Shown here one piece after another: positions 11,323-54,839 of a stretch of DNA of 64,000 nt; positions within the stretch are counted from its first letter, which is position 1, and each line of letters opens with the position of its first letter. Both the position numbers and the translations under genes were made by a program. Source of the DNA: Beroe forskalii. Lineage: Eukaryota > Ctenophora > Nuda > Beroida > Beroidae. Under the pieces are notes generated by a model. That model had not been told where the DNA came from and did not search any database. It saw nothing but the letters and a program-made list of their open reading frames with translations. The DNA lies in assembly GCA_011033025.1 (NCBI GenBank), contig WFMF01000078.1, positions 435,001 through 499,000 of the forward strand, given 5' to 3'.

Positions 11323-11612
11323 TTTTGATATTACATTACTAATTTCATAAAACTGTCAATGATTCATTGGACAATCTGCTGAATCTTCCATCCCAGATTT
11401 TCACATTTTTACAGCATTTCCTGCATGATAATCCATTGGACACACAAACTCAAAAAACACAAGTAATTTGAAATAGTCCTTGCTTTTTTGCATCTCGCAA
11501 GAAAACACCAAAAATTCATAATGAATGGTGCATTAAGATTCCCTTAACCGGGCCCCTGGTTTCGCATATTTGCACAGGGAGTGCGCGGCGCGGCAAGCCC
11601 TTGGTTGCAGTT
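11323..11612. other. Arm sequence, no gene seen
   Basis: Mirror of about 4,120-4,320 followed by a right-arm-specific GC-rich stretch. No gene recognised. Confidence 0.5.
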
Positions 11613-11641
11613 GTCAGGCGTTGCCTGACCCCGTCAGACAA
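11613..11641. mobile_element. 29-bp minimal relative of the hairpin mini-element
   Basis: Exact 10-bp direct repeats GGTTGCAGTT flank it (11,603-11,612 and 11,642-11,651). It consists of the first hairpin of the 76-bp element plus its last bases, GTCAGACAA, so the middle hairpins are missing. Confidence 0.7.
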
Positions 11642-11689
11642 GGTTGCAGTTGATCTAACCAGATGGCAGATGCTCATGCGTAATTGCTA

Positions 11690-12545
11690 AACACGTATAT
11701 CCCTGTTATTGGCTCGCGCGGCGCGCTTCCTCAGGGTCGACGGACGTTGCCCCGTCTATTTCTTCTGACTGGATGGCTGGGCGAGGTTGCAAAGTGACGT
11801 CCAAATGTGGAACGTTGCGCCGCGTGCGAGGGTAGGGTAACATCCTACGACCTCAGGGAAACTAAACGGGTATCTCTCCCATATAAACGGCTCTGACTCT
11901 CTGAGTGACGTCACAGATCTAAACGTCAATTTTTCTGTATCCTAAACCTAACCATTGCTAAACACGTATATCCCTGTCTGCGTTGCGCGGCGTGCTTCCT
12001 CAGGGTAGTGCGGCGCGCGTACGCACACCTATGCGGGCTTAGGAATTCCTAAGCCCGCATAGGTGTGTGTACGTGTACGCGCGCGGCGCTACCCTATGCG
12101 CAACGCAGACAGGGATATACGTGTTTAGCTTCCTAAGCCCGCATAGGTGTGCGTACGCGCGCAGCGCTACCCTACGGCCGGTAGCGCGCCGCGCAACGCA
12201 GACAGGGATATACGTGTTTAGCAAGTGTTTAGCAAGCTTAGGAAATATGGGAGACATACCAAACAATGAGTCACTATTCATAAGGCGCGCACAAACTTCA
12301 GCTTCATGTTGCCTAAAATTAACCATCGCCCTATTCTACGCGCGCGGCACCCGCATAGGTGGGTGTACGCGCGCGCCGCGCAACGCAGACAGGGATATAC
12401 GTGTTTAGCTACACCCGTCGTTCCTATTTATAATAAGCGCAGGCCACCCGCGCGTTTTTCTAAACCCGCATAGTATAATAGGTGTGTGTACGCGCCGCGA
12501 AACGCAGACAGGGATATACGTGTTTAGCAACAAAAATTTAGGATA
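11690..12545. repeat. GC-rich palindromic repeat cluster, right arm
   Basis: Multiple units in both orientations are bounded by CCTAAGCCCGCATAGGTG on one side and GGGATATACGTGTTTAGC on the other, with GCGC-rich centres. It also holds a block with GTGACGTCCAAATGTGGAAC and GGGTAACATCCTACGA that recurs twice at 57.2-57.8 kb, and a TGACGTCACAGATCTAAACG block found inverted at 58.1 kb. The open frames here are repeat artefacts. Confidence 0.75.
12024..12067. repeat. Perfect 44-bp palindrome
   Basis: The centre is GGAATTCC with arms reading outward through the CTAAGCCCGCATAGGTGTG unit end. It is a head-to-head junction of two GC-rich repeat units. Confidence 0.85.
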
Positions 12546-12574
12546 TTATAACTCCAGGTGCAAATGAGGAAAAT

Positions 12575-21708: not shown

Positions 21709-24700
21709 TCATGGTTCCACCGTGCAAAATTCTGTAAAATTGCTATTAAGCCAGTTTTCTGAACCTGACTTTTGTGTTTCTAGGAGAGATTTCTTAAGGA
21801 CAGATTTTATCAAATTTTCATCACTATCAAGGCCAAAATTCTCAAGTCTTGGAAGTTTCCTAAAACAATTCCAGAGCCATGGTGCCCTATATGAAAAATA
21901 GATAGATGGCTCTGGTGTCAGGAACCTGTTGCCACTGCGCTTTGATATGTTGAGGGTCTGATAGATAGGCTTGGGCTCCTTAGACTGAACTATTTTCACA
22001 AGTTCCATGATACTTCTTAGTCGATATAAATTTTGTACTGTTAATAAGTTTTCATGGGTGAAAAGAGGCTTAGACGATTCTCTACAGAAAAATTCTTTGC
22101 CAAGTTTTTGCTTATCGATTGGACGAGCTCTTACACAGGTGCGAAATTTCTCTAGAAACAAGTTAGTATCACCGAACATTATTCGTATGCATTTCTTTTG
22201 GGTACGGAAAACAGGGTCTAAGTTACTTATAGCAACCCCACCCCATACAGAGATAGCATAGCTTAGATGCGATTCGAAGAGTGAATGATAAATTTGTTTA
22301 TGCAGTTTAGCTGGTAGACAGTTCACAATCCGGTATAGTCTGCCACATGCACTTTTTAGAGTCTTGTTCAGCTTTGCAATGTGTGGTTTCCATGACAAAT
22401 CTTCATCTAGTAACACTCCTAGAATTTAGCCTCATTAACTTTCTTAATTATTTTTCCATAAACAGATATTTGAAGGTTGTCAGGAATGGAACTACGCAAA
22501 TTTTTTCTTACCAGGCCCAAAAAGCATGTAACAACATTTCTTAGTATTTATATGTAAAAGGTTAGATTCCATATACTCTGATACTTTTGACAGAACTAAG
22601 TTAGCATTTGAGTAGGCCTCTTCTATGTTGTTCCCAGTAACAAATATGTTAGTATCATCAGCGAATAAAATAAATTGGCCATTTTCAGAACAGTTACAAA
22701 TGTCATTAATGTATAATATAAAAAGCAGTGGACCCAGTACTGAGCCCTGAGGCACCCCAAATCGCACATTGAGAGTTTCAGACTTTTCATCTAGTACATT
22801 AACTAGTTGGCTTCTACCAGAAAGGTAACTTCTAATAAGGCTCAATGCCTTTCCACAAACTCCATAGTTATTCAGCTTACAGGCCAGTATTTCGTGATCT
22901 ATAGTATCAAATGCTTTACTCAGGTCAATGAAGATCCCCAGAGTATACTTTTTTGACTTAATTTGCTCTTCTATATAGGTTACTGAGTAGTTTAGAGCAT
23001 GGTTTGTTGAGTGTCCCTTCCTGAAACCGTACTGGTTATCATAGATAATTTCATTGTCCTCAAAAAATTGGTACATTCTGTTGAAGATTACCTTCTCAAA
23101 TATTTTACCAAAGATTGGTAAAGTAGAAACAGGTCTATAGTTCTCTAATAGTTCCTCATTTTCTTTTTTTGTAGATAGGTGTAATTCTGCCGGTTTTAAG
23201 TTCAGCTGGAAAGTATCCTTCAACCATACATTTGTTGTACAAGATTGATAGAATTGGTGCAGTTATTTTAGAAGTTAATTTGATCACATGGATCGGTATA
23301 TCGCTGGATTTTCCTAGTTTAAGTTCGTCAATTATATTCTCTATTTCCTCTTCATTACACTCCCTTAGGTTAAGTTTATCAGTCAGTTTATGATGTAGGA
23401 AGTCTTTATAACTTAATAGATTATTTATTCTGATGCCATTATCGTCAATATAAGCTTTATTTAGTGAGGGAGCTAATGAAACGAAGTATTTATTGAATTC
23501 ATTGGCAATTACTCTTCTATCTGTAATACGTTTATTGTTTATAAGAAAGTTTGCCTTAACATGAGATTTATCTTTACCTCGCACACTGTTAATAATTTTC
23601 CAGAGCTTCCGACTATCTCCTGCACATTCATCTACTTTGGAGCCCAAATATGTGGCTTTCCGTTGATTAATTAAGAACTTTAGCTTCTTTCTGTATTCAG
23701 AAAATTTAGTATATTTTGCATTTGTATCTGCACAATAATAACAGACACAATTATTACGATCAGTCTTTTTGATAAATCTGTTAACACAAACTTTCTTATT
23801 TGCAGATTCCCATAAATTGAATAATTTGTCTTTGTTTCTTATAGAAGCAACTAATCCTGGTGTAATCCATGGATTGTTAACTATGGTACGCTTAGACTGC
23901 TTAGGTTTATCAAGTTTACATGATTGGTCTAATTTGGTTTGGAAGATATGAGCAAATTCGGTGAAATTATTCGGAGGTTTGTCATTTAGTTCTTCTTTCA
24001 GTTCATTTCCAAATTTCTCAACGTTAGAAGTACAGTAATCATAATATTGCACATGCGTACATTTTGGCATACAATGTGGTAGTATCCCTTCACAGATTTG
24101 AAACAATGCCATGTGGTGAGAGATATGAAGTCTAAGAGTACCTGATAATGTAGTATGTTCGGGACTGTTGGTGAAGATGTTGTCAATACATGATTTCTTA
24201 CAGCCTGGTTTTTCATGGGTGTGTGTAGATATAAGAGGATACATTCCTAGGGCAAGGGTGCAGTCCTCAAGGAGTTGAGTTTCTCTCGAGTTGTCCCTGT
24301 GCAAATCTATGTTGAAATCACCAATAATATGTACTGACTTTTTGGGCAAATGTGCAATTATTTCATTTAGTTCACTTATAGCGTCACCTAGAACACCACT
24401 AGGGGGACGGTAAACTACACCAACTGTGGACAGCTCATTACCCTTGTTTATGGTTACAAAAAGAGTTTCAAGGTTTTCACTAGTTGATGAAGCTGTCTGA
24501 TTAATTACAGCATTGAGCGAGTTACTTACATAGAGACAAACACCAGTACCCTTCGACTTACCTTCAATAACTTCCTGATAATGTGGTGTATATCCGGGTA
24601 AATTGTATACAGCACTTTCATCTACACTGGTATTAGTTTCTGCTAACCCTATAACAGAAAATTTCAGTTTCATACGATGGATCTGGGTAGAAAATAAATC

Positions 24701-25084
24701 AAAGTTGGTTTTATTGCCATCTATGTTTTGAAAAAGCATGCTACCATTCAACTCAAGGTTTTTATTGTAGATAGAGTTGAATTTATCGATATCATATGCT
24801 GTGCAGTTCTCTAGTATATTAGAAAGCCTTTCCTCAAACTCATCATTATCGTCAGCATCAGGCTCCTGAGTAGATTTAAAGGGATTATACTTGGTCTCAA
24901 TATCTGCCTTACATTCATAACAGTACGAGTTTCTGTTTACAATTTCCCCTTTGGATTTTCTGAAACAGTTTTGATGAAAGATTTTATTGCAGTGGAAGCA
25001 TTCATATACATTTTGACCAACGTTTATGTTCTTCACACAATGGTTACATTGTTCTCTGATGTATTGATTGAATTTTGGTTTCAA
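21709..25084 (-). pseudogene. LINE ORF2: zinc finger, APE endonuclease, reverse transcriptase (frameshifted)
   Basis: The N-terminal part has a Cys-rich finger (CNHC, CFHC, HQNC, CYEC) of PHD/RING-like spacing. Then comes an APE-type endonuclease with NIDG, GLAETN, VYRPPSG, GDFNID, CIDNIFTN and SHH. After a long linker follows the reverse transcriptase: [59 protein letters not shown] and FADDTNIFV. The frame is broken near 23,160 (longer T run), 22,420 (missing base) and 22,505 (extra base) compared with copy 2, so this copy is dead. No in-frame ATG precedes the zinc finger: the frame opens one base before the ORF1 stop, so a -1 shift or non-AUG start would be needed. Confidence 0.85.
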
Positions 25085-26307
25085 CGCCTTAGAGCATTAC
25101 CCATGGAACTGGATGATGCTACTACACTTGAATAAGCACGACCATCGACTCGGTTTGATGAGGGGTTCCTGGCTTGGCGTCTACTGAAGACAGCCTGCTT
25201 AATAAATCCCGCAAGCTTTCTGACCCCGAAGAGGTTGAGATGCAGCATGTCTGGTCGGTTGTTCCGGTCAACCTGTCTTGACAGATCTCTGGATAGAAGA
25301 CCGTTTCCATTTCCATCCAAAAAGCTATCAAAACCTCCCACATGCTGCACCCCCAAGTCTCCATGAATCAGTTTCTGAAATATAAGCTTGTTGAAGTATA
25401 GAGCCCCTTTATTAATTTCGTGACATTTAGTGGGAAGAATAGGACATACGAAAATTTTACACTTAGGGTTTAGTCTACGAATTTCTGATAGTTTTTTGAC
25501 ATACTCCTGATAAATCATTTCAACATCATTTGGGCCATTTACACTAGGTAATTTAACATTGTTTGTGCCACACATGACGACGATGTTTTTATAAGCACAG
25601 CAATCTGATGCTTTTATGGATTCTATTGTGGGAGCCCAAAAACGCTTTCCTGGCATCATCTCTCCGAATGTCTTCCTCTTGTCATTCCCGAAATGCAGAG
25701 ATCCAGTGTTGCTGTCACCAATCAAACATGTAGAATTCTTATTCCACTTACTAACTGATCTAAAAGTGAGACTATAACGAGTGCCAGTTACATTCTCTGT
25801 TTTGATCTCATGAGAGAAAAAATCCTGAGATTTGCGACTCATTCTATAGAGGGAACTGTGTGGACATGTGATGGTTGAGTCAGGCTGATTACCATTAGGT
25901 AACTTTTGGTAAAAGTCCACTTTACACTCACTTCCTAATGACAAAGTGAATATTTGGGATTCTGGGTGTATTGACTCTTCATCATCAGAATGCCTCGGCA
26001 GAAAGGAGGAATCACCACTGTATTTATTTATCAGTATGGAGTTGATTTCTGGATGAGGCCTGTTATACTTTACACTGTCTGGATATTGTTGGAAGTAGAT
26101 GTCCTTCTGCAGATTATTGATTTGTTCAAGCAGTGATTTAAGTTGATCTGGAACTGCTTGAACTTCTTCAGGTGCCCTTGAGCCAGTGTATTTGTACTGT
26201 GCTCCAAATGCAGTTACTGAGTGCCCATTCTCATTTTTGAAATCTAGAGTGTCCAGAAAAGCAGTAATACCATCAGAAGATTCAACACTTATGAAGTTCT
26301 CTGTCAT
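25081..26307 (-). CDS. LINE ORF1: AlkB-like dioxygenase fused to SGNH hydrolase
   Basis: The frame reads 421 codons from a non-ATG at 26,346; the first ATG is at 26,307 and is used here. Numbering from 26,346: residues about 50-200 match AlkB-type 2OG-Fe(II) oxygenases, with NKYSGDSSFLPRHSDDE giving HxD at H119/D121, a distal His candidate at H179, and RYSLTFR (190-196) as the 2-oxoglutarate-binding signature. Residues about 205-385 match SGNH/GDSL esterases: LIGDSN with the nucleophile Ser, VMCGTNN as block III, and DMLH (366-369) as the Asp-His block. SGNH esterase domains are known in CR1 ORF1. AlkB is best known from DNA/RNA demethylases and plant flexiviruses. All key residues are present. 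It precedes ORF2 with a one-base overlap of frames. Confidence 0.85.
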   Translation of the reverse strand: MTENFISVESSDGITAFLDTLDFKNENGHSVTAFGAQYKYTGSRAPEEVQAVPDQLKSLLEQINNLQKDIYFQQYPDSVKYNRPHPEINSILINKYSGDSSFLPRHSDDEESIHPESQIFTLSLGSECKVDFYQKLPNGNQPDSTITCPHSSLYRMSRKSQDFFSHEIKTENVTGTRYSLTFRSVSKWNKNSTCLIGDSNTGSLHFGNDKRKTFGEMMPGKRFWAPTIESIKASDCCAYKNIVVMCGTNNVKLPSVNGPNDVEMIYQEYVKKLSEIRRLNPKCKIFVCPILPTKCHEINKGALYFNKLIFQKLIHGDLGVQHVGGFDSFLDGNGNGLLSRDLSRQVDRNNRPDMLHLNLFGVRKLAGFIKQAVFSRRQARNPSSNRVDGRAYSSVVASSSSMGNALRR

Positions 26308-28561: not shown

Positions 28562-31500
28562 ATGTCTTACGGTCCGAGAAAGATTCTAGAATACGACTAC
28601 TACCTGGTGTGCTCCTTCGAGTTTACCTGCGATGGGAAGAGGTCTCTCGAGCCCCAGGAGATGATAGAGTTCTGTGTGCTCAAGATAGACGCTAAGAAGT
28701 TCACAACTGAAGACAAGTGAGTTATTACACTAAACTGCTTACATTATGTAACCTCTCAAACCCATCAGTGAGCGCGGTTACGCGTGATCATTGGTCAAGC
28801 CTATATGGGAATAGCAATGGAATAGTAATGGACTTATTTAAAGTGAAGTATAATTATCACTCCAGTGTTTGATCAACATTATACTGTTATGCAGACTGAA
28901 CTTTGAATCAATAACGATTGTATTCATCTGGGGGTCGATTCCTCAACGAAATTTAAGTCAAAAACTGACTTGAGTAAAACTTTAAATGGAAATTTTCACT
29001 TAAATTTTGACTAAATAAGTCCGTTTTTTTGACTTAATCCGATATCGGAAAGGAACCCATGTATTTATTGCTTCATTGGATCTTCGGGTCTGATTAGTTG
29101 AATGAGTTGTTCTATGTCAGAACCGATTCCAGAAAGGAGTATAACTCTTTCCTTTCCTGAGGATGGAGCTGTCCTAAAATACTAAAATGTGAAATGTTGG
29201 TAAACGATTTAGAATCGGTCCGTAAGATCATCATATGGTCTTTAAATACAACACACTTCATCATTCTACTAAAATACACAACGCAGCAAAGGCAGCCCTG
29301 AGATCATCATGTCTGTATCGGATTTAAACATTGCGATCGTTAGGCTTTGCACTTTTGCAATTCGTATAAAATCATGCTGATTATTTAACGAGCATGTTCC
29401 TTGGCGACTTACTCGCCAATTGCTGGAGGTTCCAAGAACTTTCTACATTGCCTATTTCCAGACAAAGCTCTCTTGAATTTCGTCAAATGTGAAAAATTTT
29501 GAAATGAAAGAGGCAGGGTAATAAAATTACGTGGATTTTCATTTCACATAGTACGAAGAAGGTATAATTACTGAAATTTACTCCAAGAGCTAATTGAAGT
29601 GCATTTACTGAGCTTTGCAAAATATTTTAACTGCAATGCTTTAGTTGCCTAATAGCCCTAATTAAAATTCAATTGAATTTTAATACCAGAAGATATTATG
29701 GACGTTATATCTGAGCGCACAGGGAAGCCGTAGAACATGAAATTCATTATAACGATCTGTCAACCCCATGTTACGATTTAGCTTGTATTCTCTGCCGAGT
29801 GGATTTGTCATCACTAGACATACTGCTGAACACTGGTACTTGAACCATGAATACGGACGCTGCGGCAATATACCGAGTGACATCGCATCTAACTCTGATT
29901 CATTAGTTAATTTGTCACGTGGACAGATCCTGATTTTAGTTTTCCGGAGAAATATTGGACGAAATTTTGTGTCTTATTTATGAAGTTCCACCTACCTCCT
30001 TTTCTACCTTCTGAAGAAAAATAGTTAGTAGACTCTGCAATTTAGATTTACGAATAACTGACTTGATCTGGAAAGGTGCTGTAAAAACGTATAACTCAAG
30101 TTAGTGAACACATACCATACATGCACGTACTGGGCTATAATGTGTTGTGTCTTCGTGACAGCAGCTGCAAATTGGTTCTTGTCTACCACAGAAACTAGTT
30201 CTACGTTAGCTAGACAGGAACTGTGACAGAATTAGGAATATTTTAACATTTTATGCCGCATATTTCTCGTGACGCTTACAATAATATTTTCTATTATTAG
30301 AGTGGTATACAAGACTGAATTTAAGCATGCTTAGCTGTACTTAGCTGTACTTATACTTACCCAGCACTTAAACTAACCCAGTCATTCACTTCGGCACAGG
30401 TACTATACAATAAAACCATGGGTAATAAGTGTTATGATGGCCAATACTAGGGCCATTCTGGAATTCCTATCATTAGACGTGTACTAAAGAAAGGACATAA
30501 GACAGCACTAAAGACTGGAGTGTCCCACTGCCCTTGTCACCTGCTCTGAGTACTATCAATATCCAATGGCCACTAAGACCAGCATCTGCTATCAACTCAT
30601 CAATGTCCAGTGTCCAGTAATTCAGTATCCGCTATCGATAATCAGTATCCTAGTATCCAGTGTTCGGTACCCGCTCTCAATGTCCAGTGTTCAGTAGATT
30701 CCAATATTTCTACAGTTAGCACTGATCCAGCAACCTCCAAGTCACACAGAGCGCGCGTGGCACAGTTGCCCAAGGAATATTGTAATTGCCACCAGATTTA
30801 CACGTCATCCCAAGCACTTACCAGATCGTCTCACGACGGCTCCACACACACGCCATGTTTCCTGTACAGCTAGTGGATGGTGAAGGGTGACGTCATTATC
30901 AGGGGTTAAAGTGGTGTTTCTATGACTCCTAACCGCCTGCTCCCCTCACGAGGATTGGAAATACTGTCTGCTACGTATTTATGCCCATAGCTGATAGGTG
31001 TGGTCAGCCTAAGACCGATCTTTAACTCATTATACCGGCTTCATTACTCCATAATATAATACGCCCGTTTAAAATGAGCGGATAACTTTTAACTTACACA
31101 AAACGCACTGCCTGTTTAATGACCTGAAGGGCAATCAGAAGCGTTTCATTTAATTAAAGATATACCAAGTCACATCTTTACGAATGCTGTGTATTATCTA
31201 GGTTTGATGAAAAATTTTTGAAAAAATGGTTCATTCAAAAACTCTAATGCCTCTCAACTTCCTTAGTTGAGTGGGTTTTCAAGTGGTTAGTAACTTATTG
31301 ATTTCTCAATTCACATGACTACTTGAAGACTAGAGAAGAATGGTCTCTCGGTTGAAATAAACTGCGTAAAACTTTCGCTTCCTAGGTAAATTAGGCATTC
31401 CCAGAAGGTTGGAATACGGTATACCCACAGTAGTGTTGATAGAAAATTTTGTAGTAAGTCTTACAAATTGAAATTACATATTCGGAAACAAGTTAACACC

Positions 31501-34500
31501 TATAATATTGTACATCGTTTTGCTTGACTTGGCGAATGGATAATGACAATTCACACTTTCCACCAGGCGTCAATACGGATATGGAGAAATTATATGTTGC
31601 ATATTTTATCCCCACTTCCTGACAACTTGAAAACACTGATGAGTCCAATTTATTGCTTTATAATTTTATAGGACTGTACTTCTCAATTTCATTGATAAGT
31701 TTCCACTATTGCCTAACACTGATTCACAAAGCCTAAACCTAATTGCCGTTTATAAAGATATCGGCCGCAATTGTCAAGCTTTTCTATTGAGTGAGTGGAC
31801 AGCTAATTGAAGAAACCCAACTCTTACCATATTGTTGAGCTTTCATGGGTTCGGGAATCGTGAACTTTAATTAGTAAACTTACTGTAGCTTCTCAGAGAA
31901 TATTTCCTGAGTCCTCATGTCGTTTCTTCGGAAAATTTCATAATGTGTGTTGTGGAACCAAACTGCCTTCATTACCATAAGATTATAAAACCTGTTGAAA
32001 TAAACGAAAAGCAACATGCTGTGATATATTAAAATAAATGTCTCCAGTCGCGATAATACGAATTGGCAGACTTCTATTCGCGACAAAGTAAAACCTGAGG
32101 GGTTTCTTTAGTCAGGCACTCAGAGAATAAACACGTTTACCTTGCACATGAGCCTTATGATCTTATGGGATGAAAAATAATTATAATCGCTAGATCATTC
32201 CGATCTTGGGACATTTTCCTTTCTTTATAAGAGGAAATGTAGACTGTAAAATATATTTATGCTATCTTCTGGTCTCTATGCCATCGCTAGATACATAGCA
32301 GATTCTATGTTCACTAATTCACTTTTTACTCTCAGGTGTACTCTGAACTCCTCTCTCACACTTTTCACTGTCAGGTTCTACTCGTACGTGAAGCCGCAGC
32401 ATGAGATAAACGCTACTCTCAGCACCTTCTGCAAGATGCTCACCTGTATCAGTGACAGGAAACTAGCCAATGCTCCCAGCCTCGAGACACTCCTCCTTGA
32501 CTTTGATGGGTGGCTGTGGAGACAGGGACTTCATCAGACCAGGTTATTGTCAAGCAATTATAGTTATAAAGTGCAGTTGATACAGAGAACCAATCAAGTA
32601 GTAGACCAACTAATTACAAGCACAGATTCTGGTACAGTATGATTAGCACCTCAAACAACCTGGATCTTGGAACTGTGTCACCTATCAAATGATACTTCAC
32701 CACAGTATCATGTCCCATTTGATGCTTTGTGCAACTAGACGTCAAATATCATTCCACCTTATTTTCCAGGTACATATTCCTACCCCACACCCACTTTGAC
32801 CTCTCAGGTACATATTCGTACCCCACACCCACTTTGACCCCATTTGCCAGGTACATATTCGTGCCCCACACCCACTTTGACCCCATTTTCCAGGTACATA
32901 TTCGTGCCCCACACCCACTTTGAACCCATTTTCCAGGTACATATTCGTACTTCACACCCACTTTGACCCCACTTTCCAGGTACATATTCGTGCCCCACAC
33001 CCATTTTGACCTACAACACATGCTCCCTGCTCAGTGCAAAGCTATGGGGTACCACTGCCCCAACTACTTCTTTACTTGGATCCATCTGGAGGAAATGTTC
33101 AAAGCACACGAGAAAAAACAGAACACCAACAAACGTATCAACACAGGAATTTTAATTCATTATACCATTATAGTAAACCAGTAGTCAGTACTAACCTTAA
33201 ACTAGTAGAGTACTAGGTAACGTGGGTCATCCCCAAAAAAGTCAAAATCGCCAAATATGGGCTTATGGGGGTTCGAAGGGGGGATTGAAGGGACGAATAA
33301 CGATTTCCAATGTGATAATGTAAACATGTAATTCTAATTTTTATTCCTTAATTTTGGCCTATAAATCATGCCTGAGCCAAATTTGCTTGTAGAGCATCAA
33401 AGTATCAAGAAATCATGCAAAAAGCGAAGCAGTATTCCGGATGACCGAATGTGCTGGATTTGATTTGAAGTTCTCAAAATCACTTCAGCAGAGAGTGTAC
33501 CTGGCTGTGACTTTTTCCTCAGAAATTGCAATATCCTCCCTCTACCTAGTTCCACAGAGTAGTGATGATTCATCTTATTCTGGGATGACGACGCTGCTGT
33601 TCGCGATATAATGACCATTTCTAACCAGCTCTAACCTTGGAGTGTTTCCTGTTTCTCATGTACAGGATAATAGGACGATGATAACGCCTAATTACTTAAG
33701 TGGAGAGAGTCGGGTGTGCTGCAATGTCACTGGTACCAGCTACATTATTGGGAGTGGCATGGGTTGGCCGTGGAGTTTCTGGGATGTCTACCAGTAGAGT
33801 GTACCAAAGTACTAAAAGTAACCAAGAACAGTGAAGCAAAGAAGCAACAAATTGTGTTGTGATAGTCATTAGGTACCGTAAGCATACTGCACACTTGTAC
33901 TTAATTTCTAAAAATCTTAATTTCTGCTTAAATTTCTACAACTAAGGTACCTGCCTAGCTCTAGTAAGAACCAACGTTCAGCTCAGAAAATCAGTTGGTT
34001 GATACTAAACACCGTATCCCTATCCCTATTCCTGTGAGGTTTTACGCATGTAAATTTACATTTATAGAAAAATAAAATTGGAGGGTAAAAAGAGAGGCAC
34101 AATCGAAGTAGGTACCGACCCTGCGCCAGCTTTAATTATTTAGAAATTTGGCTTTAGTTAATACAACTTACCGTGTTAGCATGTACTCATGTAAGATGTA
34201 CACATTATTTGGTATTCAGTATAAGAGAAGGGCATAGATCAGAACAGCAACGCCACGAAGACGCCACGGTAGCGCCACGGTGGCGCCACGGTAACGCCAC
34301 GGTGACGCCACGGTGACGCCACGAGGACGCCACTGCGGCGCCACGGTGAAGCCACGAAGACGCCACGATGAAGCCACGAAGACGCCACGGTGACGCCACG
34401 GTAGTGCCACTGTGAAGCCACGAGGACGCCACGAGGAAGCCACCTAGGCGCCGGGGCAGTGCCATGGTGAAGCCACCGTGATGCCACGAGAAGGCCACTG

Positions 34501-37500
34501 TGACGCTGGCCTGGAAACGCCACGAGAAAGCCACGGTAAAGCCACCGTGAAGCCACGACAGCGCCACTGTTGTGCCAGGGATAATTTCGATAAGATAATT
34601 TAGACAATCATATACACGCATATATACACGCACTCATAATAATTTATTCATTAATAATGAATCATTGACAGTTTATAATGTATAATATCATTAAATGCAA
34701 ACATATCTGAATAGCTGATCATAGGTGGAAAAACACTGATGACTAAAGTTTTGCTTGTTCAAAGGCGTCTTGTAGTTGCTCTCCTGGTACTGTTGGAGGG
34801 CACTGCGTCATCCTGGGCCGAACTGCTTCCTGCGACCTCTCGTAGGGGATCGAACTCTGCATGGAATCTCATTCGGCCAACTGTCTGCAGTACCTGCTTG
34901 ACGTCGGAATCCTGCCACAGTACAGAAGATGCCCTACATGCACGGACTACATGACCTTCAGAAAGGGGAGCGTCTTGGAGAACAGCAAGATATCCAGCTC
35001 CACGCTGATAGAGATCCTCAATGAGTTCAGCAGAGAATCTTCCGCCAGAGAAGCCGCAAGTTCTTTGGGGGTTGCTGTGAACACCGTGCGTCACTTCTAC
35101 ACAGAGATCAGAGAGCGGATGGCATCAGATGTACAGACTTCTACTCAGCTGGGTGGGCCTGGAGAGACAGTTGAAATTGACGAAGCGAAGTTCGGCAAGC
35201 GGAAAAATAATGTCGGGAGACTTGTTGAGGGGAGCTGGGTTCTCGGAGGAGTTCAACGTGAATCAGATGATTGCTTCATGGAGGTGTGTCCTAACAACTC
35301 CAGATCAGCGGCAACACTCATTCCCATCATACAGAAATACGTGCTTCCTGGGACAACCATTGTCACAGACCTGTGGAAGGGATACTACAACCTGTCACAG
35401 TACGGCTACGTTCAATGACGTTTCAATCAATGGGGTCACATCATGGCTCACAACTCGCCCACAATAGGTAGATCATATACCATGACTCACATATCAATGT
35501 TTCATGACACCCATGTCGACCTTGAGATCCGGTAAGGTGACGGGTCAGATGATGAAACAGCATCGAAATTATCCCGGCACAACAGTGGCGCTGTCGTGGC
35601 TTCACGGTGGCTCTACCGTGGCTTTCTCGTGGCGTTTCCAGGCCAGCGTCCCCGTGGCGTCCCCGTGGCATCACGGTGGCTTCACCATGGCACTGCCCCG
35701 GCGCCTAGGTGGCTTCCTCGTGGCGTCCTCGTGGCTTCACAGTGGCACTACCGTGGCGTCACCGTGGCGTCTTCGTTGCTTCATCGTGGCGTCTTCGTGG
35801 CTTCACCGTGGCGCCGCAGTGGCGTCCTCGTGGCGTCACCGTGGCGTCACCGTGGCGCCACCGCGGCGCCACCGCGGCGCCACCGCGGCGTTGCTGTTCT
35901 GATCTATGCCCTAAGAGAATAATGCATCAAGACCCACATTCCACACTGCTCCTCTTCAGAACACCAACAAACCAGCAGTTAAGCAGATCAGGCGACGCAG
36001 CTCTGTGGGCATGCTCCAGACTCTGGGACTGCAGCAGGAGGGCCGAGCTCACTCAGCCGTAAGTAGAGTGAAGACTTGCTAAGAGTTAATGTCTACTGAG
36101 CTCACTCAGCCGTAAGTAGAATCAAGACTTACTAAGTTACTGTCCACCGAGCTCACACAGCCGTAAATAGAATCAACTAATCTAGGCTTGCTGAGTTAAT
36201 GCCTACCGAGCTCACTCAGCCGTAAGTAAGATCAAGACTGTCTACCAAGGACACTCAGCCGTAAGTAGAATCAAGACTTTCTAAGTTACTGTCCACCGAG
36301 CTCACTCAGCCGTAAGTAGAATCAAGATGTTACTGAATAGTGAATACTGACTTGCTGAGTTATTATTTATTGGACTTGTCTAGACATTGCCTAACTTGGA
36401 ACTTCAATACTTGGTTTAGCGTTTAGAAGAAGTGATATGAATTACCAGAAGCTGTCAATAATTAATGCGGTGCGTTTTCAATTTCTGGTCAACCGATTAA
36501 ACTTCAAGAAACTAAGAAATCATGAGATTTGTAAATTTTGCCATTTTCCAAGACTTTATTATTGACTTATTGATGCATTGCCAAGTTGTAGTATGTATAT
36601 TGCAATATTAGAGACACATAAGATTTTAAGCGATTTTTAAACTCCAGTTTTATGCACATCCCAATGTCCAATTTTCATGAAAACTTGAAAATATCGTGCA
36701 CAGTTGTGATGACGTAACGTGAATTGCCAAAAAGTTAAACCAAGGCTCATTTTATCCCAATTTTATGGGAAGCTCAATTTTCGCAACTTCGTCCTATGCG
36801 TCTCTACCACAACAGGAAGACAACTGCAAGAACACGGTGAACATGATGAAGAGCATGTCTGAGAAGGGAGTTGACTTCACTGCCAAGGTATGGCAGACCT
36901 TCATGTCCCGCAAGAAGAACGGAGACCAGATAGACGAGGAGGATGAGGATTACGATGAGGAAGAGGAATTGGAGGATTTGGAGGTGAGTTTGGGAGGTGA
37001 TTGATGTGATGAGGGGGGTGGGGGGGTGGAGCAGGTTGGGAGGGGATGACAAGGAAAGGAGGAAGAGGAATTGGAGGATTTGGAGGTGAGTTAGGGGTGT
37101 CATTGCTGTGTAAGGGGGAAGGGGCTGAGGATAGGGGACAAAGAGTACGATGATACTTCTGATGAAGTACAGGAAGTTGCCTAGGGAAGGAAGTTCCTTA
37201 TTAAGTTATTATACTTAACTGAAAGTGATGAATATGAAAATAAAACCACTTTCAAGTATCGACCTGCTGACCACTGTCTTTCTAAAACCTAAACTATCAT
37301 GTATGACTTTTGACACTGTCAATTGAAATAGCCCCTTTTTATTCCACTGACCACTTCACCACTATTACCCACTCCTCTATCCCAGGAGGACAAGACGATG
37401 GCGCTGGTGAGGCGAGTGAGCACCATGTCCATGGGGGGAGGGAGTGGTAGGAACACTCCCGACGTACCACTCCCTGGTGGCAGAACCACTCCCGGGGCGG

Positions 37501-37691
37501 GGGGTAGGACCACGCCTGGCAGACAACTCAGCCACCCCTCCTTCGCTTCCATGGTCGACAAGATCATGGCTAGCCAGAATAACAAGCCCGCACGACCTGT
37601 GCCAACCAGGCGAATCAGTCAGCCTGCAAACTTTGCTTCTCTTGTTGATAAGTTGATGGAACAAAACAAGAATGCTTTGCCAGCCAAATGA
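28562..37691 (+). CDS. ERI/3'hExo-family DEDDh exonuclease-like gene
   Basis: Six exons are proposed: 28,562-28,716, 32,375-32,542, 32,980-33,134, 35,976-36,058, 36,816-36,983 and 37,386-37,691. All phases agree, giving 344 aa. The fold follows ERI1/ERI2/ERI3-type 3'-5' exoribonucleases: ILEYDYYLVCSFEFTC, EMIEFCVLKI, FYSYVKPQ, FDLQHMLPAQC, WIHLEEMF, GMLQTLGLQQEGRAHSAEDN. D118, H185 and D189 are kept, but the first Asp of the DFE motif is Ser (S18-F-E20), so catalysis may be impaired. The tail is acidic, then has two GGRTTPG copies and two FAS(M/L)VDK(I/L)M motifs. Family role: trimming of small, histone or ribosomal RNA. The exon 4 start is the least certain junction. Confidence 0.82.
28717..32335 (+). 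other. Intron 1 of ERI-like gene
   Basis: A 3.6-kb intron without a recognised gene. About 28,930-29,080 has inverted AAATTTAAGTCAAAA-like segments resembling a MITE. At 30,580-30,710 there are loose repeats of CCAGTGTTCAGTA type. Nothing else is supported. Confidence 0.5.
32336..32375 (+). promoter_or_regulatory. Duplicated 3' splice site of intron 1
   Basis: Two similar acceptors, CTCAG|GTGTACTC and GTCAG|GTTCTACTC, lie 39 bp apart (exon starts 32,336 and 32,375). Flanks are alike on both sides, so this looks like a diverged tandem duplication. Use of the upstream site keeps the frame and adds 13 residues. Confidence 0.65.
32759..33000 (+). repeat. Six tandem 3' splice sites at exon 3
   Basis: A 43-bp unit (the first is 38 bp) repeats with AG acceptors before 32,770, 32,808, 32,851, 32,894, 32,937 and 32,980. 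Each unit holds a short pyrimidine stretch, CCAG, then GTACATATTCG and CACACCCACTTTGA, which is the start of exon 3. Only the last copy continues into exon 3 coding sequence. One unit shifts the frame; three units would restore it. Confidence 0.9.
33120..33134 (+). repeat. End of exon 3, repeated before exon 4
   Basis: CAGAACACCAACAAAC at 33,119-33,134 recurs exactly at 35,957-35,972. In the second position it lies just upstream of a CAGCAG acceptor. The two copies bracket intron 3. Confidence 0.85.
33135..34221 (+). other. Intron 3 of ERI-like gene before the Merlin element
   Basis: AT-rich intron sequence. No gene or confident element recognised. Confidence 0.4.
34230..35911 (+). mobile_element. 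Merlin DNA transposon with 11-bp-repeat arms
   Basis: The ends are GGGCATAGATCAGAACAGCA and its complement, flanked by the 8-bp target duplication TAAGAGAA (34,222-34,229 and 35,912-35,919). Merlin elements make 8-9-bp duplications and encode an IS1016/IS1595-type DDE transposase, which is found inside. Each terminal arm (about 34,230-34,590 and 35,565-35,911) is mostly an array of about 30 units of 11 bp reading GCCACGGTGAC, in the same variant order in both arms. It sits in intron 3 of the ERI-like gene. Confidence 0.88.
34861..35418 (+). pseudogene. Merlin transposase, C-terminally truncated
   Basis: A 185-codon frame starts at a real ATG. It has a zinc-ribbon-like CPTC, a helix-turn-helix-like stretch (AREAASSLGVAVNTVRHFY), then VEIDEAKFGKRK with the first catalytic Asp (D107), GSWVLGGVQR, and TIVTDLWKGYYNL with the second Asp (D170). 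The frame stops 15 residues later, before the segment that holds the third catalytic Glu in IS1595/Merlin transposases; that segment is not visible in the following sequence in any frame. Full family members are near 300 aa. It is therefore predicted inactive. The family catalyses cut-and-paste transposition. Confidence 0.82.
36044..36330 (+). repeat. Six tandem 5' splice sites after exon 4
   Basis: The exon 4 end ACTCAGCC|GTAAGT recurs with GT at 36,059, 36,112, 36,163, 36,222, 36,261 and 36,312, in units of 39-59 bp containing GAGCTCACTCAGCCGTAAGT and AATCAAGACTT. Five of the six donors read GTAAGT and one GTAAAT. The first is taken as the real exon end because it keeps the ERI motif HSAED when joined to exon 5. 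Confidence 0.88.
36957..37092 (+). repeat. Duplicated 5' splice site after exon 5
   Basis: An exact 34-bp copy of the exon 5 end plus donor (36,957-36,990) recurs at 37,059-37,092, so two GGAG|GTGAGTT donors lie 102 bp apart. Extension to the second donor would meet a TGA, so only the first gives a full protein. A 27-nt in-frame microexon between AAAG and the second donor is conceivable, but its acceptor is poor. Confidence 0.85.
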
Positions 37692-50366: not shown

Positions 50367-53300
50367 GAAAACAAAGAGTTTATGAAAACAAAGAGTTTAT
50401 TTTGATCTCCATTAATACAAATCACATTTCAAACACACACACAAACACAAATGATTTTTGACGTCCGAATCACAATACTTGTAATTTGAACTAAGATTTT
50501 AATTACAGTTCATTATATTTTATCATCTGCATTGAATACCTAGTATGCAAAATCATTATACTATTATAGTCATCACTATATTGATATTAGAGACCATTTA
50601 GTTCACAGGAATATACTCATGTAGCACGCTTTGCTGACCATTTTTGCAGGAAAAAAGAAGATTCTATCATTTATTAGTGTATTGTGTTAAATAGTGGTCT
50701 CATTAACTTTATAGTAGTTCATAACATCAGACGTAATCATTTGTTGACCCATGTTACTGGGTCAGAAAAGCAAGCCAAAAAACAAAATGGTATAGAATTT
50801 TCTTCAAAGCAGTTGTGATCTACGAGGCATAAATGTTAGGTACCATTAATACCATCATTTCAGCATACTGAGTGAGTATCATACAGTATGAGTTACACAG
50901 CTGTTTAAGAGCTTTCTATGTAGTTTGGAGCCTTGTGAGGCAATTCAGGCCTTTGTGAAACTGACTAGTAACTCTAGCATCCTTTTGCTGCATCTGTTTG
51001 TAATGTTCTAATGATACCTACATTATTACCTGCAGAGCTAGTCAGTTTCAGATACAGATGCACCCTGAGTGGCAGACCAGTTATCGTGGCTGGAGAAAGG
51101 ATGCAGTGGCTATTTGCTTCATAGCACCCCTTGGGACCACCTGGTCCACCACTTGGGGTCAAATATTCTCGACAAAAATATGATGGTAAATACCAACAAC
51201 ATAATATATAGAATTGTAACTTGTATGACATGATAATTTAGTAACATCACTTGAAATCAATGGTCTGAGGATTTATTGTCATACAAAGGTTTAAGGATTT
51301 GGGACTAAGGCCTGATGCATCATGCATAGACTTACATTAGAACATATAAGTCAGTGACATCCAAAAAGTCGCCAAATAGAATTGGTGTGTCGCATTTTGT
51401 ATTATGTACAAGACAAGTTTTTCACTAACTTAACAACCTACTTCATTTCACCCATGGGTCTCGGCTCAAGGATGTCTCTAAGATTGACTGACTGAAGTAG
51501 ACAAACAGACAAACGAACAAAATATGAATATTGAACACACTCACAACCCGAGTCGTGGTTAACCGTTTCCATTTTTATAATTTCGGTAATGGGAAAAATT
51601 CCCATCGTTAAAGTGTGAACACAACCGTTGGTCCCGTTATCACTTTCCACTATATACTCTCATCATGGTTCCACCGTGCAAAATTCTGTAAAATTGCTAT
51701 TAAGCCAGTTTTCTGAACCTGACTTTTGTGTTTCTAGGAGAGATTTCTTAAGGACAGATTTTATCAAATTTTCATCACTATCAAGGCCAAAATTCTCAAG
51801 TTTTGGAAGTTTACTAAAACAATTCCAGAGCCATGGTGCCCTATATGAAAAATAGATAGATGGCTCTGGTGTCAGGAACCTGTTGCCACTGCGCTTTGAT
51901 ATGTTGAGGGTCTGATAGATAGGCTTGGGCTCCTTAGACTGAACTATTTTCACAAGTTCCATGATACTTCTTAGTCGATATAAATTTTGTACTGTTAATA
52001 AGTTTTCATGGGTGAAAAGAGGCTTAGACGATTCTCTACAGAAAAATTCTTTGCCAAGTTTTTGCTTATCGATTGGACGAGCTCTTACACAGGTGCGAAA
52101 TTTCTCTAGAAACAAGTTAGTATCACCGAACATTATTCGTATGTATGCATTTCTTTTAGTACGGAAAACAGGGTCTAAGTTACTTATAGCAACCCCACCC
52201 CATACAGAGATAGCATAGCTTAGATGCGATTCGAAGAGTGAATGATAAATTTGTTTATGCAGTTTAGCTGGTAGACAGTTCACAATCCGGTATAGTCTGC
52301 CACATGCACTTTTTAGAGTCTTGTTCAGCTTTGCAATGTGTGGTTTCCATGACAAATCTTCATCTAGTAACACTCCTAGGAATTTAGCCTCATTAACTTT
52401 CTTAATTATTTTTCCATAAACAGATAGTTGAAGGTTGTCAGGAATGGAACTACGCAAATTTTTCTTACCAGGCCCAAAAAGCATGTAACAACATTTCTTA
52501 GTATTTATATGTAAAAGGTTAGATTCCATATACTCTGATACTTTTGACAGAACTAAGTTAGCATTTGAGTAGGCCTCTTCTATGTTGTTCCTGGTAACAA
52601 ATATGTTAGTATCATCAGCGAATAAAATAAATTGGCCATTTTCAGAACAGTTACAAATGTCATTAATGTATAATATAAAAAGCAGTGGACCCAGTACTGA
52701 GCCCTGAGGCACCCCAAATCGCACATTAAGAGTTTCAGACTTTTCATCTAGTACATTAACTAGTTGGCTTCTACCAGAAAGGTAACTTCTAATAAGGCTC
52801 AATGCCTTTCCACAAACGCCGTAGTGATTCAGCTTACAGGCCAGTATTTCGTGATCTATAGTATCAAATGCTTTACTCAGGTCAATGAAGATCCCCAGAG
52901 TATACTTTTTTGACTTAATTTGCTTTTCTATATAGGTTACTGAGTAGTTTAGAGCATGGTTTGTTGAGTGTCCCTTCCTGAAACCGTACTGGTTATTATA
53001 AATAATTTCATTGTCCTCAAAAAATTGGTACATTCTGTTGAAGATTACCTTCTCAAAAATTTTCCCAAAAATTGGTAAGGTAGAAACAGGTCTATAGTTT
53101 TCAAATAGTTCTTCATTATCTTTTTTGTAGATAGGTGTAATTCTGCCGGTTTTAAGTTCAGCTGGAAAGTATCCTTCAACCATACATTTGTTGTACAAGA
53201 TTGATAGAGTTGGTGCAGTTATTTTAGAAGTTAATTTGATCACATGGATCGGTATATCGCTGGATTTTCCTAGTTTAAGTTCGTCAATTATATTCTCTAT

Positions 53301-54770
53301 TTCCTCTTCATTACACTCCCTTAGGTTAAGTTTATCAGTCAGTTTATGATGTAGGAAGTCTTTATAACTTAATAGATTATTTATCCTGATGCCATTATCG
53401 TCAATATTAGCTTTATTTAGTGAGGGAGCTAATGAAACGAAGTATTTATTGAATTCATTGGCAATTACTCTTCTATCTGTAATACGTTTATTGTTTATAA
53501 GAAAGTTTGCCTTAACATGAGATTTATCTTTACCTCGCACACTGTTAATAATTTTCCACAGCTTCCGACTATCTCCTGCACATTCATCTACTTTGGAGCC
53601 CAAATATGTGGCTTTCCGTTGATTAATTAAGAACTTTAGCTTCTTTCTGTATTCAGAAAATTTAAGATATTTTGCATTTGTATCTGCACAATAATAACAG
53701 ACACAGTTATTACGATCAGTCTTTTTGATAAATCTGTTAACACAAACTTTCTTTTTTGCAGATTCCCATAAATTGAATAATTTGTCTTTGTTTCTTATAG
53801 AAGCAACTAATCCTGGTGTAATCCATGGATTGTTAACTATGGTACGCTTAGACTGCTTAGGTTTATCAAGTTTACATGATCGGTCTAATTTGGTTTGGAA
53901 GATATGAGCAAATTCGGTGAAATTATTCGGAGGTTTGTCATTTAGTTCTTCTTTCAGTTCATTTCCAAATTTCTCAACGTTAGAAGTACAGTAATCATAA
54001 TATTGCACATGCGTACATTTTGGCATACAATGTGGTAGTATCCCTTCACAGATTTGAAACAATGCCATGTGGTGAGAGATATGAAGTCTAAGAGTACCTG
54101 ATAATGTAGTATGTTCGGGACTGTTGGTGAAGATATTGTCAATACATGATTTCTTACAGCCTGGTTTTTCATGGGTGTGTGTAGATATGAGAGGATACAT
54201 TCCTAGGGCAAGGGTGCATTCCTCAAGGAGTTGAGTTTCTCTCGAGTTGTCCCTGTGCAAATCTATGTTGAAATCACCAATAATATGTACTGACTTTTTG
54301 GGCAAATGTGCAATTATTTCATTTAGTTCACTTATAGCGTCACCTAGAACACCACTAGGGGGACGGTAAACTACACCTACTGTGGACAGCTCATTACCCT
54401 TGTTTATGGTTACAAAAAGAGTTTCAAGGTTTTCACTAGTTGATGAAGCTGTCTGATTAATTACAGCATTGAGAGAGTTACTAACATAGAGACAAACACC
54501 AGTACCCTTCGACTTACCTTCAATGACTTCCTGATAGTATGGTGTATATCCAGGTAAATTGTACACAGCACTTTCATCTACACTAGTGTTAGTTTCTGCT
54601 AACCCTATAACAGAAAATTTAAGTTTCATACGATGGATCTGGGTAGAAAATAAATCGAAGTTGGTTTTATTGCCATCTATGTTTTGAAAAAGCATGCTAC
54701 CATTCAACTCAAGGTCTTTATTGTAGATAGAGTTGAATTTATCGATATCATATGCTGTGCAGTTCTCTAG
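50367..54770 (-). mobile_element. 5'-truncated copy 2 of the AlkB-bearing LINE family
   Basis: Nearly identical to 20,432-24,810 including the 3' region. Similarity stops at about 54,770, inside the start of the endonuclease, so ORF1 and the zinc finger are missing. The 3' end carries two direct copies of the 17-bp unit AAAACAAAGAGTTTATG where copy 1 has one, like a short-repeat LINE tail. High identity between copies implies recent movement. Confidence 0.88.
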
Positions 54771-54839
54771 TGAAAGAGATAAGGAAAAAACTAATAAGCC
54801 ACCAGATGCATCTGCCGTCCCATGTTTACATAAAACCAT
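51663..54839 (-). CDS. Open LINE ORF2: endonuclease plus reverse transcriptase
   Basis: An uninterrupted frame of 1,058 codons. The first about 25 codons, including the ATG at 54,839, come from flanking DNA and not from the element; LINE sequence starts at ENCTAYDIDKF. APE endonuclease motifs AETN, YRPPSG, GDFNID (about residue 188) and SHH, and reverse-transcriptase motifs NYRPVSTLP (about 580), [23 protein letters not shown] and FADDTN (about 740) are intact. The C-terminal part after the RT shows no second nuclease. It could supply reverse transcriptase if transcribed, but this copy lacks its own 5' region. Confidence 0.88.
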   Translation of the reverse strand: MVLCKHGTADASGGLLVFSLSLSLENCTAYDIDKFNSIYNKDLELNGSMLFQNIDGNKTNFDLFSTQIHRMKLKFSVIGLAETNTSVDESAVYNLPGYTPYYQEVIEGKSKGTGVCLYVSNSLNAVINQTASSTSENLETLFVTINKGNELSTVGVVYRPPSGVLGDAISELNEIIAHLPKKSVHIIGDFNIDLHRDNSRETQLLEECTLALGMYPLISTHTHEKPGCKKSCIDNIFTNSPEHTTLSGTLRLHISHHMALFQICEGILPHCMPKCTHVQYYDYCTSNVEKFGNELKEELNDKPPNNFTEFAHIFQTKLDRSCKLDKPKQSKRTIVNNPWITPGLVASIRNKDKLFNLWESAKKKVCVNRFIKKTDRNNCVCYYCADTNAKYLKFSEYRKKLKFLINQRKATYLGSKVDECAGDSRKLWKIINSVRGKDKSHVKANFLINNKRITDRRVIANEFNKYFVSLAPSLNKANIDDNGIRINNLLSYKDFLHHKLTDKLNLRECNEEEIENIIDELKLGKSSDIPIHVIKLTSKITAPTLSILYNKCMVEGYFPAELKTGRITPIYKKDNEELFENYRPVSTLPIFGKIFEKVIFNRMYQFFEDNEIIYNNQYGFRKGHSTNHALNYSVTYIEKQIKSKKYTLGIFIDLSKAFDTIDHEILACKLNHYGVCGKALSLIRSYLSGRSQLVNVLDEKSETLNVRFGVPQGSVLGPLLFILYINDICNCSENGQFILFADDTNIFVTRNNIEEAYSNANLVLSKVSEYMESNLLHINTKKCCYMLFGPGKKNLRSSIPDNLQLSVYGKIIKKVNEAKFLGVLLDEDLSWKPHIAKLNKTLKSACGRLYRIVNCLPAKLHKQIYHSLFESHLSYAISVWGGVAISNLDPVFRTKRNAYIRIMFGDTNLFLEKFRTCVRARPIDKQKLGKEFFCRESSKPLFTHENLLTVQNLYRLRSIMELVKIVQSKEPKPIYQTLNISKRSGNRFLTPEPSIYFSYRAPWLWNCFSKLPKLENFGLDSDENLIKSVLKKSLLETQKSGSENWLNSNFTEFCTVEP

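Follow-up and report, generated by a model that had tools for sequence, protein, structure and literature searches.

Repeats at the intron boundaries of an ERI-like gene are best read as tolerated repeat noise

The ERI-like gene and its duplicated splice boundaries

The window analysed here (64,000 nucleotides, positions 435,001 to 499,000 of contig WFMF01000078.1) belongs to a 216-Mb genome assembly of 1134 contigs and carries on its plus strand an ERI-like (RNase_T) gene (28562..37691), which we modelled from its reading frame and GT-AG sites. The six coding exons (28562–28716, 32375–32542, 32980–33134, 35976–36058, 36816–36983 and 37386–37691, stop included) encode 344 amino acids with an RNase_T domain (PF00929, E 1.9e-14), and the nearest solved structure is that of ERI1 exoribonuclease 3. 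Four relatives of the protein (P0001–P0004) were found, the best being P0001 with 79% identity over 100% of the query. An earlier note on this DNA had described a duplicated splice boundary in every intron of the gene; this holds for four of the five introns, weakly for one of them, whereas intron 3 has a repeat of another kind.

One array lies at the acceptor of intron 2 (32761..33011, plus strand). Each of its six copies comprises a CAG|GT together with some exon sequence, and the sixth is the exon start itself; all six acceptors read CAG|GTACATATTC (first exon bases 32770, 32808, 32851, 32894, 32937 and 32980), the units are 38 and 43 bp long and their 35-base cores are identical at 31–34 positions. 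At intron 4 it is the donor that is repeated (36043..36327, plus strand): six copies spaced by 39–59 bp and identical at 27–33 of 38 bases, of which the first is the exon end, place donors after 36058, 36111, 36162, 36221, 36260 and 36311, the third reading GTAAAT instead of GTAAGT. The intron 5 donor (after 36983) lies within the first copy of an exact 34-bp repeat (36957..36990, plus strand), and the second copy (37059..37092, plus strand) offers another donor after 37085, use of which would lead to a premature stop. In intron 1 the acceptor after 32374 has a similar counterpart 39 bp upstream, after 32335 (32320..32376, plus strand). Their similarity is weak, 15 of 18 bases at –39 and 17 of 28 over 28 bases; the best score of other acceptors in the 18-base test, among 59 modelled myosin acceptors of the same genome excluding three rows in two arrays, is 13. 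All these copy numbers come from one assembly.

Boundary duplication is thus strong in introns 2, 4 and 5 (27, 26 and 25 of 28 bases, respectively), with repeat units that span both exon and intron; the intron 1 unit does so weakly. Splice signals, AG or GT, are borne by the copies at both 5′ and 3′ boundaries. The acceptors and donors listed by the earlier note for these four introns are all present, and its view that tandem duplication ran across the boundaries was right, from which remodelling of the intron ends follows. To judge from the sequence, the arrays of introns 2 and 4 have a history, because their copies differ from one another. The same substitutions (31–34 of 35 and 27–33 of 38 bases identical) argue against an assembly artefact, and several separate arrays would all need to be wrong. 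Such arrays are indeed hard to assemble, and a comparable repeat of the lancelet globin gene BflGb6 appeared aberrantly assembled in a draft genome (PMC3087553); we nevertheless hold misassembled repeats to be a highly improbable source of the pattern.

Predicted consequences for splicing

In a reading-frame test of the three strong arrays, the full protein is obtained solely from the copy adjoining the intact exon. Premature stops or frameshifts would result from all five upstream acceptors of intron 2, from all five downstream (extra) donors of intron 4 and from the one extra donor of intron 5, while the upstream acceptor of intron 1 would add 13 residues in frame. This insert is absent from all four relatives in the protein alignment, and their proteins have plain junctions: those of introns 1, 2 and 4 align with P0001–P0004 without gaps, and that of intron 5 aligns as well, although P0002 lacks alignment at one residue close by.

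The arrays could be regarded as selected switches through which the ERI-like gene is spliced alternatively or unproductively. The in-frame insert at intron 1 and the early stops from 5/5, 5/5 and 1/1 extra sites of introns 2, 4 and 5, which resemble those of poison exons, would fit such a role. However, early stops are also what chance yields, the four relatives have the plain product at the intron 1 junction, and unrelated myosin genes carry similar arrays (see below), so that we find selected switches quite unlikely.

The predicted donor arising after a mis-splice to an upstream intron 2 copy is CAGACCAG|GTACAT: exon 2 would be joined to GTACAT, a fresh donor, and if the final copy of the array were then used as acceptor, the normal message would be restored. 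With a simple consensus score of our own, which is not a trained model, GTACAT reaches 1.6 versus 0.7 for the original GTTATT donor. Re-splicing of this kind could explain why AG|GT acceptor arrays are tolerated. It is inapplicable to donor arrays and to both acceptor arrays found in myosin genes, whose copies read AG|TT and AG|GC.

Similar arrays in myosin loci and the genome background

For comparison we used the myosin head family of the same genome, which has 78 matches on 11 contigs, and took loci from five of these contigs. A purpose-written spliced aligner gave 59 introns, of which 40 with flanking exon parts of at least 30 nt and a GT donor were kept; one more was recovered from two discarded rows, joined because they had been split inside an array, resulting in 41 introns and 82 boundaries at five loci. 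Tandem duplication was scored where 28-base windows match at 22 or more positions within 320 bp.

Three of the 82 myosin boundaries reach this threshold. One is an acceptor array at L039 with about eight 34-bp copies (exon TTCAACTCG), and another is an acceptor present in three copies at L042 (exon GCTAAGAAC). At L043 a donor with a 22-bp duplication stays below the threshold (18 of 28), as does a second L043 donor, which is probably a chance match. Boundary arrays therefore recur in three of the five myosin loci as two acceptors and one weaker donor. The suggestion that such repeats are special to the ERI-like gene fails elsewhere in the genome, where these loci have similar arrays.

Local tandem duplication is common in this genome, covering 4.4% of the window (0.0% in one Markov shuffle) and 12.7% of the positions in a 200-kb stretch elsewhere. 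Within myosin introns, 241 of 2329 interior windows reach the threshold (40 introns; neighbouring windows are correlated), compared with 93 of 6820 positions in exon interiors, so tandem duplications are fewer where coding sequence constrains. When boundaries were rotated along the myosin loci, 4.6 hits were expected and 3 were seen. Myosin boundaries are not preferred sites and, taken together, have no more tandem duplications than the sequence around them. Given also how few duplications lie in exons, this is what one would expect of duplications that arise at any position and are removed from coding sequence.

In the 200-kb stretch, exact nonamers resembling donors did not outnumber decoys of the same composition, a test too weak to be used. 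Two donor-like sites within duplications of this stretch resemble repeat sequence and not splice sites, and a coding-potential scan gave exon candidates, from which no introns were counted.

Several observations weigh against so general an explanation. The ERI-like gene has 3 of 10 boundaries above threshold, the myosin loci 3 of 82 (Fisher test, p 0.016), and addition of one weak case per side gives 4 of 10 versus 4 of 82 (p 0.004). Rotation within the ERI-like gene gives 1.08 expected hits for the 3 seen, a number attained in 0.082 of rotations; once a transposon nested in intron 3 is left out, the expectation falls to 0.68 (0.018). The third myosin hit, at acceptor 1396 of L039/L040, belongs to a duplicated and probably alternative exon and is not an array. 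Finally, the myosin background is uneven: intron interiors reach the threshold at 184 of 982, 44 of 252 and 5 of 64 windows in three genes, and at only 6 of 666 in L042 and 2 of 365 in L043, whose few arrays include, in each case, one at a boundary. A local or gene-specific cause of the excess in the ERI-like gene is possible, though not needed. The L042 and L043 arrays are, each alone, not significant (L042: 0.137 of rotations), and the chance of at least 3 hits among 10 boundaries is 0.005, 0.008, 0.075 or 0.12 at rates of 0.037, 0.044, 0.103 or 0.127. The excess is mild and concerns a gene that was singled out because it looked striking; with thousands of genes in a genome, many would be expected to match it by chance at these rates. 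The earlier argument that five of five introns are unlikely by chance ignores the repeat-rich genome and the similar myosin arrays; the repeats do exceed the shuffle, and the gene lies somewhat above the myosin rate.

As a side observation, L039/L040 has two tandem open versions of the exon IQYFA...NDNSSRFGKF (oriented positions 1397–1592 and 1651–1876), candidates for a mutually exclusive pair.

Do the repeats record the origin of introns?

The earlier note had connected the repeats with the hypothesis that introns are born or remodelled by tandem duplication of short AGGT-like exon segments, which corresponds to the Rogers model. Under this model, a single exon segment is copied, and donor and acceptor each fall within a copy of it. 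We compared 50-base windows from the donor and acceptor sides of each intron, with 1980 mismatched donor/acceptor pairs as control. In introns 1, 2, 4 and 5 the longest uninterrupted match between the two windows is 6 bases or fewer, which is well within the control range, and each array sits at one end of its intron only; donor and acceptor are not copies of one segment there. Intron 3 shares 16 bases between its ends, and this stretch lacks AGGT. Origin by AGGT duplication is therefore unsupported for the four introns with arrays, and the intron 3 repeat is not of the AGGT kind either.

Some features do point towards the model. The repeat units of intron 2 carry CAG|GT along with a possible branch sequence. 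Moreover, an intron of the L039/L040 myosin (oriented 11558–12572), largely made of a 16-bp minisatellite, begins and ends with TCATTAG|GTG across its boundaries, at a place where the C1 myosin is uninterrupted. It is a candidate for intron gain by duplication; since at least 10 shared bases also occur in 5 of the 1980 mismatched pairs, one such case among 45 introns is a lead and not proof. Set against the short matches, the one-sided arrays and the missing AGGT of intron 3, these features leave AGGT duplication an unlikely origin for the introns of the ERI-like gene.

One might also imagine that the boundary minisatellites represent an active stage of intron remodelling, in which AG|GT arrays are tolerated because mis-splices are re-spliced, and grow until some become new intron ends or whole introns, the L039/L040 intron and intron 3 of the ERI-like gene being two products. 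We regard this scenario as speculative and rather unlikely.

Intron 3 and its nested transposon

The claim that intron 3 is bracketed by an exact 16-bp copy of the exon end was confirmed. The first copy of CAGAACACCAACAAAC ends exon 3 (33119..33134, plus strand) and the second lies 2838 bp further on, at the 3′ end of the intron (35957..35972, plus strand). The splice site itself is not duplicated, the first copy being followed by GTATC (the donor) and the second by CAGCAG. The 16 common bases exceed the maximum of 12 found in the 1980 mismatched pairs. The two copies share a reading frame, in which the second continues as NTNKPAVKQ, resembling the sequence of the relatives at this junction (KPAVKQ in P0001 and P0002, KPAKKQ in P0003 and P0004). 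The ERI-like protein itself has KP-VKQ or K-LKQ, depending on which of the in-frame GT-AG choices tried is taken, and so drops a residue that all four relatives keep; these splice sites score poorly against our consensus, and the price of using them is one residue, or two plus one substitution.

Of the 2841 bp of intron 3, 1682 bp are an IS1595/Merlin-type DNA transposon (34230..35911; PF12762). Its inverted ends, composed of 11-bp tandem repeats, are 70% alike over 340 bases, and its transposase frame of 190 aa covers only part of the PF12762 profile. The element was ruled out as the maker of the intron, since its own 8-bp target duplication (TAAGAGAA, 34222–34229 and 35912–35919) lies inside it. 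A genome search with the remainder of intron 3, in which common words were skipped, returned, besides the intron, a match of 126 bases and one of 151 bases, both 71–72% identical. No other close copy was found within the limits of such a search, and a high-copy element is likewise unsupported within them.

The 16-bp repeat is most likely a separate event, an insertion or a repair with a short target duplication. Insertion or templated repair appears to fit better than duplication of an exon segment, because the shared stretch lacks AGGT and the intron is 2.8 kb long. It is an appreciable possibility, which we hold tentatively, that intron 3 alone was gained recently through an insertion in the course of which 16 coding bp were duplicated; the 3′ splice signal would then be part insert (pyrimidines) and part duplicate (CAG). 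The extent of the match relative to mismatched pairs, the common frame with its continuation into sequence kept by four relatives, and the poor splice sites with their cost of one or two residues argue for such a gain. Against it, the word-skipping search gave no close copy of the rest of the intron that could serve as a source element, and the same appearance would result if an old intron had undergone templated repair or acquired a fused copy of its boundary. A recent gain of intron 3 would be compatible with the reading that we prefer for the other four introns.

Other features of the protein and the window

At residues 18–20 and 185–190 of the ERI-like protein (encoded within 28562–36983), this protein and all four relatives have SFE or AFE in place of DFE and HxxxxN in place of HxxxxD, respectively. 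Two of the five catalytic residues expected for this type of exonuclease are thereby missing. With these two residues lost, the protein may be an inactive RNA-binding relative.

A dispersed repeat within intron 1 (28922–29062) has dozens of matches in the genome at 70–84%, often on both strands. On the minus strand, two putative copies of a non-LTR retrotransposon (21709–25096 and 51663–54839) are alike by eye, the second with an open frame of 1058 aa.

Boundary minisatellites and their known counterparts

Introns 1, 2, 4 and 5 probably carry boundary minisatellites of the type called mirages in lancelets, tolerated and nearly neutral. Short tandem duplications, frequent at the local scale throughout such a genome, would have happened to span existing splice boundaries, and the arrays would then have grown and diverged through slippage or unequal exchange. 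They would persist as long as splicing still works with the copy adjoining the intact exon, i.e. the last acceptor or the first donor, and it is for this reason that we consider them nearly neutral. The boundary repeats are best read as tolerated repeat noise and not as proof of intron birth; it should be noted that, in general, repeats at intron ends do not by themselves prove it.

Eleven Wnt exon matches on six contigs were found in the genome. A lancelet would be expected to have more, so the number speaks against a lancelet and for an animal whose Wnt set is small. That several genes of an apparently non-lancelet animal bear arrays suggests that these emerge wherever tandem duplication is frequent, and this genome offers a place to ask whether boundary arrays ever turn into new introns.

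Among the literature matches listed, multi-copy boundary minisatellites are described for lancelets. Mirages occur there in Adh3, the globins BflGb6 and BflGb9 and troponin C, with similar imperfect repeats in PGBD5, and two BflGb6 haplotypes have 6 and 3 copies (PMC3087553, PMC3902484). Their published anatomy is that of the arrays in the ERI-like gene. The spacing differs: our multi-copy arrays have 38–59 bp and the intron 5 repeats 102 bp, versus 150–160 bp in BflGb6, 157 bp in BflGb9 and 10–72 bp in Adh3; unlike the lancelet mirages as described, ours occupy four boundaries of one gene. The lancelet globin paper also proposes mirages as possible creators of introns (PMC3087553).

Tandem duplication, as in the ERI-like gene, also underlies the cases of vertebrate ATP2A1, of 24-bp repeats in fission yeast and of potato RdRp, where a two-copy duplication likewise spans an intron–exon boundary (PMC4974935). 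The ERI arrays differ from these cases in that each sits at one intron end and no new intron is shown. Introners resemble intron 3 alone, in that direct repeats flank it and its 3′ splice site combines insert and duplicate. The 16 bp of intron 3 exceed the target duplications of 3–9 bp given for some introner families (PMC9860276), and our word-skipping search found no other close copy of the intron.

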